DNA of 64,000 nucleotides from Deferribacteraceae bacterium V6Fe1 (GTDB lineage Bacteria > Chrysiogenota > Deferribacteres > Deferribacterales > Deferrivibrionaceae): positions 1,624,001 to 1,688,000 of the forward strand of contig CP063375.1 in the NCBI GenBank assembly GCA_022813675.1. Reading direction: 5' to 3'. Numbering within the stretch: position 1 is the stretch's first letter; every line of letters begins with the position of its first letter. The notes beneath the pieces are model-generated. The model had not been told where the DNA came from and searched no databases. It saw only the letters and a program-made list of their open reading frames with translations. Of the stretch, positions 6,973 through 28,690 are shown one piece after another. The position numbers were made by a program, and so were the translations under genes.

Positions 6973-7830
6973 ATGAAAAAGTTTGTAGATTTCTTAAAGA
7001 TGATAAAGATAGAGCACTCGGTTTTTGCGCTCCCTTTTGCATTTACTTCAGCTGTAATTGCTGCAAATGGTTTACCTGCTCTTGATAAAGTAATTTGGAT
7101 AATAGTTGCAATGGTTGGAGCAAGGACTGGGGCAATGGGGCTAAACAGGGTAATTGATGCGGAGATAGATCGTAAGAATCCAAGAACAGCAAACAGAGAA
7201 ATCCCCGCAGGGAAGATTAAAAAGAGTGAAGCCGTTTTATATATAATAATAAGCTTCATTGTTTATGAGTTTGCAACACTTATGCTTAATAATCTTTGTT
7301 TTATGCTTTCACCGATACCTCTTGCAATATTTATTTTATATTCATACACAAAAAGGTTTACTGCCTTGTGCCACATAGTACTTGGCATAGCTTTGGGGCT
7401 TGCCCCTATAGGTGCGTGGGTTGCGATAAGTGGGGATATAAATTTTGGGATAGTTTTAATGGGAATTGCCGTACTTTTTTGGGTTGCCGGCTTTGATATT
7501 ATTTATGCCTTGCAAGATATTGATTTTGACAGGCAGGAAAATTTGCACTCGATCCCTCGTTATTTTGGTATAGAGAATTCATTAATATTGTCAAGGGTGT
7601 TTCATTTGATAGCTTTCTTTGTTTTTGTTTATCTTTATAAATATTTTAATATGGGCTATCTATATTTAACGGGAATAATCATTTGTGGAATATTTATGTT
7701 TTACCAGCATAGACTAATTAGTAAAGATGATCTGTCCAGAGTAAATATTGCTTTTTTCAATTTAAATGCCTACATTAGTCTAACGGTTTTTGTTTTTACC
7801 TTTTTGGATGTTATTTTAATTAGAGGATAA
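6973..7830 (+). CDS. ubiA: UbiA-family polyprenyltransferase (likely menaquinone route)
   Basis: This integral-membrane prenyltransferase attaches a polyprenyl chain to an aromatic acid. The first Asp motif is NRVIDAEIDRKNPRT near residue 57 and the second is ALQDIDFDRQENLHSIP near residue 178, with about eight hydrophobic helices between and after. It resembles the 'ubiA_other' group, which includes MqnP of the futalosine menaquinone pathway; that role is an inference. I chose ATG 6973 (one base after the hemH stop) over TTG 6961. ubiX follows directly (TAAATG). Length is 285 residues. Confidence 0.9.
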   Translation: MKKFVDFLKMIKIEHSVFALPFAFTSAVIAANGLPALDKVIWIIVAMVGARTGAMGLNRVIDAEIDRKNPRTANREIPAGKIKKSEAVLYIIISFIVYEFATLMLNNLCFMLSPIPLAIFILYSYTKRFTALCHIVLGIALGLAPIGAWVAISGDINFGIVLMGIAVLFWVAGFDIIYALQDIDFDRQENLHSIPRYFGIENSLILSRVFHLIAFFVFVYLYKYFNMGYLYLTGIIICGIFMFYQHRLISKDDLSRVNIAFFNLNAYISLTVFVFTFLDVILIRG

Positions 7831-8406
7831 ATGAGAAGATTTTTTGTTGGGATTACGGGAGCAAGTGGCTCCCTTTACGGTCTTAGGCTAATTAGTGAAC
7901 TTGCTTCTTACGAAAATAATGAGGTTTACGTAAGTATTACGCCGGACGGAGAGATAAATTTAAAGCTTGAAACAGGAATTGAAAACCTTGATGAAATAAA
8001 AAGTAAAATAACTTCCAAATCAAATGTCAAATTTGTAGATTATCGAGATTTTGCAGCTCCTGTTTCCAGCGGGAGTTTTAAAGTAGATTCTTACATAATT
8101 ATTCCAGCTTCAATGGGCTGTGTAGGAAGGGTAGCATCCGGAGTGAGCTCCAACCTTATTGAAAGATGTGCTGATGTCGCTTTGAAAGAGAGGAGAAAGC
8201 TTGTAATAGTATTTAGGGAAGCTCCACTTAATACTATTCATTTGAAAAATCTTTTGGAATTGTCAAAAGCCGGTGCAATTATTTTCCCTGCTGCCCCTGC
8301 ATTTTATCATGAACCTAAATCGATTGATGATTTAATTAACTTTATTGTTGGAAAAATATTTGATATAATAGACGTAGAGCACTCTTTATTTAAAAGATGG
8401 AACTAA
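7831..8406 (+). CDS. ubiX: Flavin prenyltransferase UbiX
   Basis: UbiX makes prenylated FMN, the cofactor of UbiD-type decarboxylases that act on polyprenylated hydroxybenzoate or related menaquinone precursors. The N-terminal flavin motif GITGASGSLYGLRL, SSGSFKVDSYIIIPASMGCV, and the Arg/Tyr-containing REAPLNTIHLKNLLELSKAG and PAFYHEPKS are all present. The length of 191 residues is typical. The gene abuts ubiA with no gap, which fits joint use on one quinone pathway. No ubiD partner is in the window. Confidence 0.94.
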   Translation: MRRFFVGITGASGSLYGLRLISELASYENNEVYVSITPDGEINLKLETGIENLDEIKSKITSKSNVKFVDYRDFAAPVSSGSFKVDSYIIIPASMGCVGRVASGVSSNLIERCADVALKERRKLVIVFREAPLNTIHLKNLLELSKAGAIIFPAAPAFYHEPKSIDDLINFIVGKIFDIIDVEHSLFKRWN

Positions 8407-25656: not shown

Positions 25657-26199
25657 ATGGATAGACACTGGAAAAAATTAAATACGCACAGAGAGTATCT
25701 TGACAGGGTACTCTCTGTGGAACATCGTGAATTTTATTTTAGCAAAGAAAATGCTTCTATGAACTTTACGGTAATAAATACCAATGACTGGGTTACTATC
25801 ATCCCTATAACTTCCGACAATAAATTTGTTTTGGTGAAGCAGTATAGGATAGGCACGGAAGAAACTACCTTTGAATTTCCCGGAGGGGCTATAAATAAAG
25901 GTGAGGATAAGCTAAATGCAGCTCTCAGAGAATTGAAAGAGGAAACAGGTATTGAACCGAAGGAGATAAAACTTTTAGGGGAGGTTCATCCTAACCCTGC
26001 CTTTATGAGTAACAAAGCTTATGTCTATCTCGCAACGGGGTGTGAATTTAAGTACGATTTGAATTTGGATATGTTCGAGGATATAGAATTGATAACATTA
26101 AGTAAAAATGAATTGGAAGAGTATATAAAAGATGGTATAATAAAGCATAGCATAGTATTGGCTGCTTATTCTTTATTTTTAGTTGATAACAAAGTTTGA
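25657..26199 (+). CDS. Nudix hydrolase, ADP-ribose pyrophosphatase type
   Basis: The perfect Nudix box G-X5-E-X7-REUXEEXGU is GAINKGEDKLNAALRELKEE followed by TGI (residues ~88-110). The fold around it (VLVKQYRIG before, LGEVHPNPAFMSNKAYVYLA after) matches the ADP-ribose/NDP-sugar pyrophosphatase group, which cleaves ADP-ribose to AMP and ribose-5-phosphate. Length is 180 residues. The stop overlaps the GAGG that serves the next gene. Exact substrate is not assignable. Confidence 0.9.
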   Translation: MDRHWKKLNTHREYLDRVLSVEHREFYFSKENASMNFTVINTNDWVTIIPITSDNKFVLVKQYRIGTEETTFEFPGGAINKGEDKLNAALRELKEETGIEPKEIKLLGEVHPNPAFMSNKAYVYLATGCEFKYDLNLDMFEDIELITLSKNELEEYIKDGIIKHSIVLAAYSLFLVDNKV

Positions 26200-26207
26200 G
26201 GTAGTTT

Positions 26208-27005
26208 ATTTACCGAAAAATTAAAAATTATAAAATTTACTTTATAGATTTCTTACTTATAGGTTTTATAATAATATCATCATTTTTATTGCTAAGAAAT
26301 CTGTCTGAAAACCTCGGATACAACTGGCAATTTTATCGTATTTGGGAATATTTAATAAAAAAGACAGAAAACGGATATGAGTTTGGTATTTTAATAAAAG
26401 GTCTTTTTATTACTTTGGAAGTTTCCGCTATTAGTCTGATTTTGTCTTTTATTTTTGGACTGTTCAGTGCACTTTTCAGCATATCAAACTCTTTTATGCT
26501 GAAACTCATATCTGCTTTCTATGTGGAAACCATAAGAAATACTCCATTATTGATTCAGATATTTTTTAATTATTTTGTAATTTCACCTATTTTTAATATA
26601 TCACCTTTTGTGACGGCCATACTTACACTAAGCCTGTTTGAAGGGGCGTACGCATCGGAAATTATAAGAGGCGGGATAAATTCTATTCATTCGGGTCAGT
26701 ATGAAGCTGCAAGAAGTCTGGGCTTAACTGAATATCAAATGTACCGATTTATTGTTTTACCTCAGGCATTAAAAAATGTGGCACCCCCCCTTGCAAGTCA
26801 AGGAATCTCTCTTATTAAAGATTCATCTCTTGTAAGTACGATATCTGTTTATGAATTGACCCTTTACGGGCAGGCAATAGTCAGTGAAACATTCTTGAGC
26901 TTTGAAGTATGGTTTACAATTGCTTTGATATATCTTATAATAAATGTGATATTGTCGGCCGGGATAAAAATATTTTCAAAAAAAGTTACAAGGAGTGCAA
27001 AATGA
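26208..27005 (+). CDS. Polar amino-acid ABC permease, probable AUU start
   Basis: This inner-membrane permease of the HisM/GlnP group has the EAA loop GQYEAARSLGLTEYQMYRFI near residue 165 and LIKDSSLVSTISVYEL. The only ATG/GTG/TTG near the front is TTG 26289, which would remove the first membrane helix (FLLIGFIIISSFLLL) and lacks a Shine-Dalgarno. The sister permease at 27821 keeps that helix. ATT at 26208 has GAGG six bases upstream, and in-frame coding runs back to there from a TAG at 26202. I therefore propose an AUU start (265 residues). The binding-protein gene overlaps its stop by ATGA. Confidence 0.8.
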   Translation: MYRKIKNYKIYFIDFLLIGFIIISSFLLLRNLSENLGYNWQFYRIWEYLIKKTENGYEFGILIKGLFITLEVSAISLILSFIFGLFSALFSISNSFMLKLISAFYVETIRNTPLLIQIFFNYFVISPIFNISPFVTAILTLSLFEGAYASEIIRGGINSIHSGQYEAARSLGLTEYQMYRFIVLPQALKNVAPPLASQGISLIKDSSLVSTISVYELTLYGQAIVSETFLSFEVWFTIALIYLIINVILSAGIKIFSKKVTRSAK

Positions 27006-27820
27006 AAAAAGTGTTAAGCGTTGTTGTTGTATTGCTTATTATGTTTGGAGCAAGTGTTTATGCTGACTCTGTAAGGGAAAGTCTTACAAAAGAAAGCACA
27101 ATCGAGAAGATTCTACGAAGAGGTTACATTAAGGTTGGAATGTCAACTTTTGTACCTTGGGCGATGCAGGATAAAAATGGAAATCTGATAGGTTTTGAGA
27201 TTGATGTGGCCAAAAGATTAGCTCAAGATATGGGTGTAAAAGTAGAATTTATACCTACAAAATGGTCAGGAATTATTCCTGCTCTTTTGACGGGCAAGTA
27301 TGATGTAATTATCGGAGGTATGGGAATCACACCTGAAAGGAATAAAAAAGTAAATTTTACTATCCCTTATGATTATTCAGGTATGTCTATCGTAGCACAT
27401 AAGGAAAAGGCCAAGGGTTTCAGCAAATTGGAAGATTTTAACAAAAGCGATGTCGTAATTGCCGTAAGAATTGGCACTACTGCTGAAAGTGCTGTTAAGA
27501 AGTATTTGCCTAATGCCAAATTGAAACTTTTTGATGATGAGTCTCAGGCGATTCAAGAGCTTTTGACAGGTCGTGTTCATGCAGTAGTTGCTTCTGCTCC
27601 AATGCCTGCTTTTCAGGCGATAGAGCATAGTGATAAGCTTTTTGTTCCTTTTAAAGAAACTTTTACTAAAGAGCCTATTGCGTTTGCAATTAGAAAGGGT
27701 GATGTGGATACTTTAAATTATTTCAACAGTTGGATTACAATTGTTGAATCAGAAGGTTGGCTCAAAGAGAGGAAAGATTATTGGTTTAATTCAAAGGATT
27801 GGGAGCAACTTTTGAAATAA
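27002..27820 (+). CDS. Polar amino-acid ABC binding protein
   Basis: This periplasmic protein of the SBP_bac_3 family has a signal peptide (KVLSVVVVLLIMFGASVYA) and family blocks RGYIKVGMSTFVPWAMQDKN, LIGFEIDVAKRLAQDMGVK, FIPTKWSGIIPALLTGKYD and GGMGITPERNKKVNFT. It probably binds a polar amino acid. ATG 27002 has AAGGAG upstream and overlaps the permease stop. The 272-residue length is normal. It lies between two permease genes that likely form a heterodimer. Confidence 0.92.
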   Translation: MKKVLSVVVVLLIMFGASVYADSVRESLTKESTIEKILRRGYIKVGMSTFVPWAMQDKNGNLIGFEIDVAKRLAQDMGVKVEFIPTKWSGIIPALLTGKYDVIIGGMGITPERNKKVNFTIPYDYSGMSIVAHKEKAKGFSKLEDFNKSDVVIAVRIGTTAESAVKKYLPNAKLKLFDDESQAIQELLTGRVHAVVASAPMPAFQAIEHSDKLFVPFKETFTKEPIAFAIRKGDVDTLNYFNSWITIVESEGWLKERKDYWFNSKDWEQLLK

Positions 27821-28690
27821 ATGAAAAAAGTTAAATTTAAGAGGATAGACATACTGGTATTGTCTATCCTTCTTATAATTGTTTTTTATGTTTTTTATAG
27901 AATAAATATTTATATCGACTACCATTGGCAATGGCATCGTGTAGTTGATTATATCATCAATAAAGATGAAAACGGATACCATTTCGGTCTATTGTCAAAA
28001 GGGTTATTTTATACTTTAAAATTAAGTTTATGGTCTATTATCTTTAGCATTATTTTAGGATTTATATTTGGCACTTTCAGATCTTTTAAACGACCATTTT
28101 TTAGGTTTGGCTCTTTGGTATATGTTGAAGTGAATAGAAATATCCCGCCGTTAATTTTGATTTTTATTTTTTACTTTTTTATAAGTGATCAAATTTTCAC
28201 ATTGCTTGAAGTTGAGTATTTCATAAGAAATTTAGGTGAGACTACCCGTGAAATAATTTCAATATTTTTTGCACCCCCCAATTTGATTTCATCTTTTTTT
28301 GCCGGTGTATTGGCACTATCTGTATTTGAAAGTGCTTACATTGCTGAGATTGTTAAAGCAGGTATAGAATCTGTTGATGTTGGGCAAAAAGAGGCTGCAA
28401 AAGCTCTGGGTTTGTCAAAGTATCAGGTTTTACGGTATATAATTATTCCGCAAGCTTCCAAAGTAATAATTCCTCCACTTAGTAACCAATGTATTTCGAC
28501 GATAAAGGATTCCTCAATTGTTTCCGTGATAGCTATCCCTGAACTCACATTTCAAGGTATGGAGATGATGTCAGCGACTTATCTGTCATACGAGACTTGG
28601 ATTACGGTAACCTTCTTTTACTTTATTCTTACATTTTCACTTTCTTTATTAAATAAAAGGATTGAAAAGACTTATACTCTTAATTTCTGA
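27821..28690 (+). CDS. Polar amino-acid ABC permease
   Basis: This is the second permease of the amino-acid importer, 289 residues. The first helix is ILVLSILLIIVFYVF, then HWQWHRVVDYI, an insertion of about 25 residues around residue 130 (EYFIRNLGETTREII) and the EAA loop GQKEAAKALGLSKYQVLRYI near residue 187. It is related to the first permease (shared DENGYHFG/TENGYEFG and KDSS motifs). The ATG abuts the binding-protein stop. No ATPase gene follows; the next gene is pstS, so the ATPase must be encoded elsewhere. Confidence 0.9.
   Translation: MKKVKFKRIDILVLSILLIIVFYVFYRINIYIDYHWQWHRVVDYIINKDENGYHFGLLSKGLFYTLKLSLWSIIFSIILGFIFGTFRSFKRPFFRFGSLVYVEVNRNIPPLILIFIFYFFISDQIFTLLEVEYFIRNLGETTREIISIFFAPPNLISSFFAGVLALSVFESAYIAEIVKAGIESVDVGQKEAAKALGLSKYQVLRYIIIPQASKVIIPPLSNQCISTIKDSSIVSVIAIPELTFQGMEMMSATYLSYETWITVTFFYFILTFSLSLLNKRIEKTYTLNF

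Follow-up and report, generated by a model that had tools for sequence, protein, structure and literature searches.

The window analysed here is a stretch of 64,000 nucleotides (positions 1624001-1688000 of a closed 2.36 Mb genome). It carries a locus for a polar amino acid ABC transporter, in which the gene order is permease 1, substrate-binding protein (SBP) and permease 2 (Table 1). Permease 1 belongs to the TIGR01726 family (86.2 bits, for a cut-off of 42.2) and the adjoining SBP was confirmed as a family-3 member. The SBP ATG overlaps the permease 1 stop codon (ATGA) and is preceded by a strong Shine-Dalgarno (SD) sequence, AAGGAG (26990-26995, about -7.5 kcal/mol). No ATPase gene was read in the stretch from permease 2 to the Pst-like genes downstream. 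Within the 3' end of permease 1, a TTTACA-17-TATAAT element is found at 26913-26941, and its hexamers look identical by eye in a congener (G001); this element is possibly a separate promoter for the SBP gene. A promoter scan gave 16 matches for 17.1 expected by chance, and RNA folding around the permease 1 start revealed nothing unusual (z of 0.17 and -0.14).

Table 1. Positions in the window of the features discussed in the text.
Feature	Position	Strand	Evidence or remark
NUDIX hydrolase gene (NudE-like), upstream of permease 1	25657-26199	+	PF00293; stop 8 nt before AUU
GAGG, SD core of permease 1	26198-26201	+	Sequence; overlaps the NUDIX TGA stop (26197-26199)
AUU start codon, permease 1	26208-26210	+	Sole SD-supported start upstream of TM1
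Permease 1 CDS, 265 aa, polar amino acid ABC transporter	26208-27005	+	HEQRo_perm_3TM (TIGR01726) / BPD_transp_1 (PF00528)
N-terminal transmembrane helix, most of it ahead of the first standard start	26241-26310	+	Translation; AlphaFold2; orthologs
TTG, first standard codon in frame, not retained as the start	26289-26291	+	Without SD; inside helix
SBP gene, family 3	27002-27820	+	PF00497, E 1.9e-37
Permease 2 gene, ATG start	27821-28690	+	PF00528; directly follows the SBP stop (TAAATG)

The permease 1 frame is open from 26205, just after an in-frame TAG (26202-26204), up to the stop codon at 27003-27005. The first in-frame ATG, GTG or TTG is the TTG at 26289, located 81 bp downstream of the ATT codon at 26208, and six bases separate this ATT from the GAGG motif. 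The N-terminal extension ahead of the TTG reads IYRKIKNYKIYFIDFLLIGFIIISSFLLLRN. If the anti-SD sequence is the standard one, the SD duplex amounts to -7.0 kcal/mol for the ATT and to +3.2 kcal/mol, that is no SD, for the TTG. In the AlphaFold2 model of the full 265 residues, a helix is predicted at residues 2-35, with pLDDT values of about 85 over residues 11-30. This N-terminal helix is also present in orthologs starting with ATG, and permease 2 carries a matching helix together with the same Y(N/H)WQ loop. Taken alone, the SD is weak evidence for the ATT, because an SD of equal quality precedes 3-6% of internal AUH codons (AUU, AUC or AUA) of the genome by chance.

The start codon is made secure by comparison. 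In the genus of the window genome (family f1; G000 being the window genome, G001 and G002 its congeners), the arrangement TAG-NNN-ATT is found in all three species, with GAGG or GGGG six bases ahead of the ATT. G000 and G001 have diverged after the ATT (17/33 identical), whereas the stretch from the SD to the start is better kept (12/16). In G002, which is 95% identical, a CTG stands in place of the TTG at 26289 and the first standard start occurs at about residue 70. A second family (f3; G018, G004 and G011, 50% identical) shows GGAG-TAATAG-ATT or GGAG-TAACAG-ATT. The ATT codon and its spacing are identical in the five relatives, and all f1 and f3 orthologs have an equivalent SD (-5.9 to -7.0 kcal/mol before the non-AUG codon). 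No standard start precedes TM1 in G002, G018, G004 or G011, the first one in G011 being at about residue 78. Together with the AUH or CUG codons bearing an SD in another phylum (see below), these sequence comparisons make it nearly certain that permease 1 starts at the ATT. The original prediction had described an in-frame extension with a membrane helix upstream of the TTG, an ATT flanked by GAGG and TAG, and a sister permease with matching helix and loop, all of which are borne out. Its claim that the ATT is the only plausible start in the extension is now strongly supported, since in six species belonging to two families no other start has the support of an SD. It had also considered that a recent mutation could have replaced an ATG kept by close relatives; the presence of ATT in both congeners excludes this option. 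Finally, no relative devoid of the upstream helix was found and the start at the ATT survives that check. The connection to IF3 that it raised is plausible.

Orthologs with non-AUG starts also occur in another phylum. In two metagenome-assembled genomes (MAGs), a CTG with GGAG is the sole SD-bearing start of permease 1. A search of 147 genomes from relatives of one of these MAGs (Geopsychrobacter-like) yielded 30 orthologs with their loci, which were lined up on the YNW loop so that their classification is anchored on homology. A column of ATT, ATC or ATA codons lies about 39-40 codons before the loop, with GGAG or AGGAGG ahead. Approximately 23 of the 30 orthologs use ATT, ATC, ATA or CTG with an SD. 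In 12 of them, no standard codon at all exists before TM1 (11 with AUH and SD, one with a weak SD). Another 12 have standard codons that all lack an SD, plus an SD-bearing AUH or CUG; the SD served as a criterion for this latter class, but not for the 11-12 forced cases. The last six orthologs have a standard start, without SD (three) or with SD (three). As controls from the same loci, the SBP genes have a standard start with an SD in 29/29 cases and the permease 2 genes in 25/27.

On a tree of 63 orthologs, the start label changes 7 times, versus 21.3 times in shuffles (0/500 as low). The non-AUG starts are therefore clustered, though a single origin is not provable. Codon changes within the clade of the other phylum comprise six among ATT, ATC and ATA, one to ATG (L162) and one to TTG. 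The exceptions inside the non-AUG clade are TTG with GGAG (L154), ATG without SD (L162) and ATG with a weak SD (L143); a standard ATG or TTG with SD is seen in L136, L142, L154 and L172-L174. The Pseudomonadota orthologs examined mostly have standard starts. As read from these alignments, the non-AUG start characterizes the permease 1 gene itself and is conserved in two phyla.

In the other two families of Deferribacteres that have this operon, f2 and f8, permease 1 starts with ATG and the SD is absent in 6/6 cases. The SBP genes of f2 and f8 keep a strong SD, those of f8 starting with ATG or GTG, and 56-75% of the genes around these operons have an SD while 25-44% have none. The SD-less ATG state rests on few independent lineages and is partly lineage-shared, so that these six cases should not be over-counted. 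Judging from the sequences, permease 1 combines an AUH codon with an SD or, in the ATG-using families of Deferribacteres, an ATG with no SD. As a separate observation, the permease 1 ATG of G016 (L069, around 7827-7842) directly follows TATAATATTTTCCTG and the mRNA looks leaderless.

Non-AUG starts are rare in the window genome. Indeed, a scan of a 400 kb genome sample plus the window (353 gene models) returned infC, with a clear AUA, and one further candidate, a count that is an underestimate as the gene filter did not list permease 1 of the window. In the Deferribacterales, infC has a non-AUG start in all 30 genes read (L075-L104) and in the window genome, nearly always an AUA with TGGAGGTGA. 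AUA is also the infC start in Desulfuromonadales-like genomes with a readable start (L180-L196). Autocontrol of infC by IF3 through a weak start thus probably exists in these genomes, and the IF3 lever is likely present. Another gene of the genus deserves mention. An ASKHA-like gene (FSVAIDIGAGTQDILIY; L125, G000:C1:1116173-1117183, minus strand; L126 and L127) has no ATG, GTG or TTG until codon 77 in 3/3 congeners. Its f3 and f8 orthologs start with an ATG placed at the stop codon of the preceding gene or a little beyond it. This case could be explained by an ATA start that overlaps the gene before it, or else by slippage on an A7 run that fuses the two genes.

We propose, with a probability of about 0.68, that a selectively kept AUU start holds permease 1 initiation low, limits the number of transporters and makes permease 1 translation sensitive to IF3. 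Initiator fMet-tRNA would decode the AUU, with the GAGG SD setting its position. Since AUH start codons are rejected by IF3, permease 1 translation should follow the IF3-to-ribosome ratio, as that of infC does. Selection would keep the weak codon and, by analogy, initiation may fall to about a tenth of that on AUG, AUU and AUA starts having yielded approximately 10% of AUG levels in Staphylococcus aureus reporters (PMC13009471). The adjoining SBP would be produced from its AUG and strong SD, and permease 1 would thereby limit the number of transporters. In f1, where the SBP ATG overlaps the permease 1 stop codon, weak initiation on the permease might reduce SBP synthesis as well. Selection for low initiation appears to be the simplest account of the comparative data, and IF3 sensitivity may be an added regulatory benefit. 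A transporter gene retaining a non-AUG start in two phyla, and arriving elsewhere at a comparably weak signal through SD loss, would be strong comparative evidence that a low initiation rate is itself selected.

Other readings bear either on the position of the start or on its meaning. A standard gene caller would put the start at the TTG, a standard codon, and leave the open frame upstream untranslated. However, this TTG has no SD, sits in the conserved helix that orthologs starting with ATG also have, and is absent from other orthologs, being CTG in the 95%-identical congener. On the basis of the relatives, a start at this codon was rejected as very improbable. Frameshifting or stop readthrough out of the upstream gene, which could supply the N-terminus given that upstream genes end nearby, is just as improbable. 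Indeed, in-frame stops directly precede the AUH codon in many species, the genes upstream are unrelated and occupy different frames, and almost every AUH codon has an SD ahead of it.

With the start accepted as real, it could still be almost neutral, an ancestral slip having been fixed and compensated by a good SD, without any control function. AUU with an SD does still yield some expression, and ATT, ATC and ATA have replaced one another by drift at this codon. Yet ATG is one base away everywhere and AUG remains rare in the clade, the SBP and permease 2 genes of the same loci use standard starts, and the one ATG found within the AUH subclade as well as the ATGs of f2 and f8 all lack an SD. 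We consider such neutrality improbable. Somewhat less improbable, but still unlikely, is the idea that the weak codon matters only in conjunction with translational coupling: after terminating on the upstream gene (nudix, msrA), ribosomes would reinitiate at the nearby AUH, which would tie permease 1 to the upstream protein. In about 20 non-AUG loci, the upstream gene ends 3-40 nt ahead of the AUH, and its stop codon often overlaps the SD. Reinitiation is IF3-sensitive (PMC2268962). Nevertheless, coupling does not require a non-AUG codon, and across the orthologs the gap from the upstream stop to the permease 1 start ranges from 3 to 180 nt, AUH or CUG being retained at gaps of 60-180 nt (L144, L149, L157, L134, G004 and G011). 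In addition, Pfam assigns the gene directly upstream to NUDIX in the window genus, to MurB in f3 and to MsrA in most of the other phylum, and an Nth-like gene was read by eye in L156. This variation between lineages indicates that the weak start goes with the permease gene itself rather than with any single upstream partner. Selection for low permease 1 initiation thus remains our preferred account.

A practical consequence concerns annotation. Callers restricted to ATG, GTG and TTG shorten permease 1 (in G002 and G011, the loss is about 70-78 residues), and the gene is thus probably misannotated in many genomes. A more far-reaching proposal, which we put forward tentatively and hold to be rather doubtful, is that a transporter permease is kept under IF3-gated translation in two phyla, so that the number of transporters would track the condition of the translation apparatus. 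If true, this would provide a nutrient-uptake counterpart to infC autocontrol.

To our knowledge, few bacterial genes have an AUU, AUC or AUA start, and our literature searches found no published report of a non-AUG start for this permease. Its closest kin by domain and by permease-SBP-permease neighbourhood are the polar amino acid ABC permeases of TIGR01726 (GlnP, ArtQ and HisM). Among the published AUU, AUC and AUA starts considered outside infC, the genes are regulators or are involved in RNA processing. The S. aureus genes cvfC1 (AUU) and ccpN (AUA) likewise combine a conserved non-AUG start with a strong SD (PMC13009471), but they are regulatory-type genes with longer, extended SDs, whereas the permease 1 orthologs have cores of 4-6 nt. 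In Escherichia coli, an AUU start keeps the pcnB product scarce (cited in PMC13009471), as is proposed for permease 1; the latter is a different gene, whose weak start persists in two phyla and shows a trade-off with SD strength. In Streptomyces, the non-standard start of sigR is located in an operon, is conserved in the genus and determines how much SigR is made relative to a partner protein: the GTC start is repressed by IF3, which keeps SigR below RsrA (PMC5472188). IF3 control is thus demonstrated for this sigma factor, while that of permease 1 is predicted from its start codon. Finally, the nearest parallel is infC itself, autocontrolled by IF3 from an AUU, AUC or AUA codon and starting with AUA in the same genomes. 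Permease 1 shares with infC the AUH codon, the good SD and the conservation across species. Unlike infC, it encodes a transporter subunit, its non-AUG start is restricted to some lineages and, as it is not a translation factor, its putative response to IF3 would not close a direct feedback loop.
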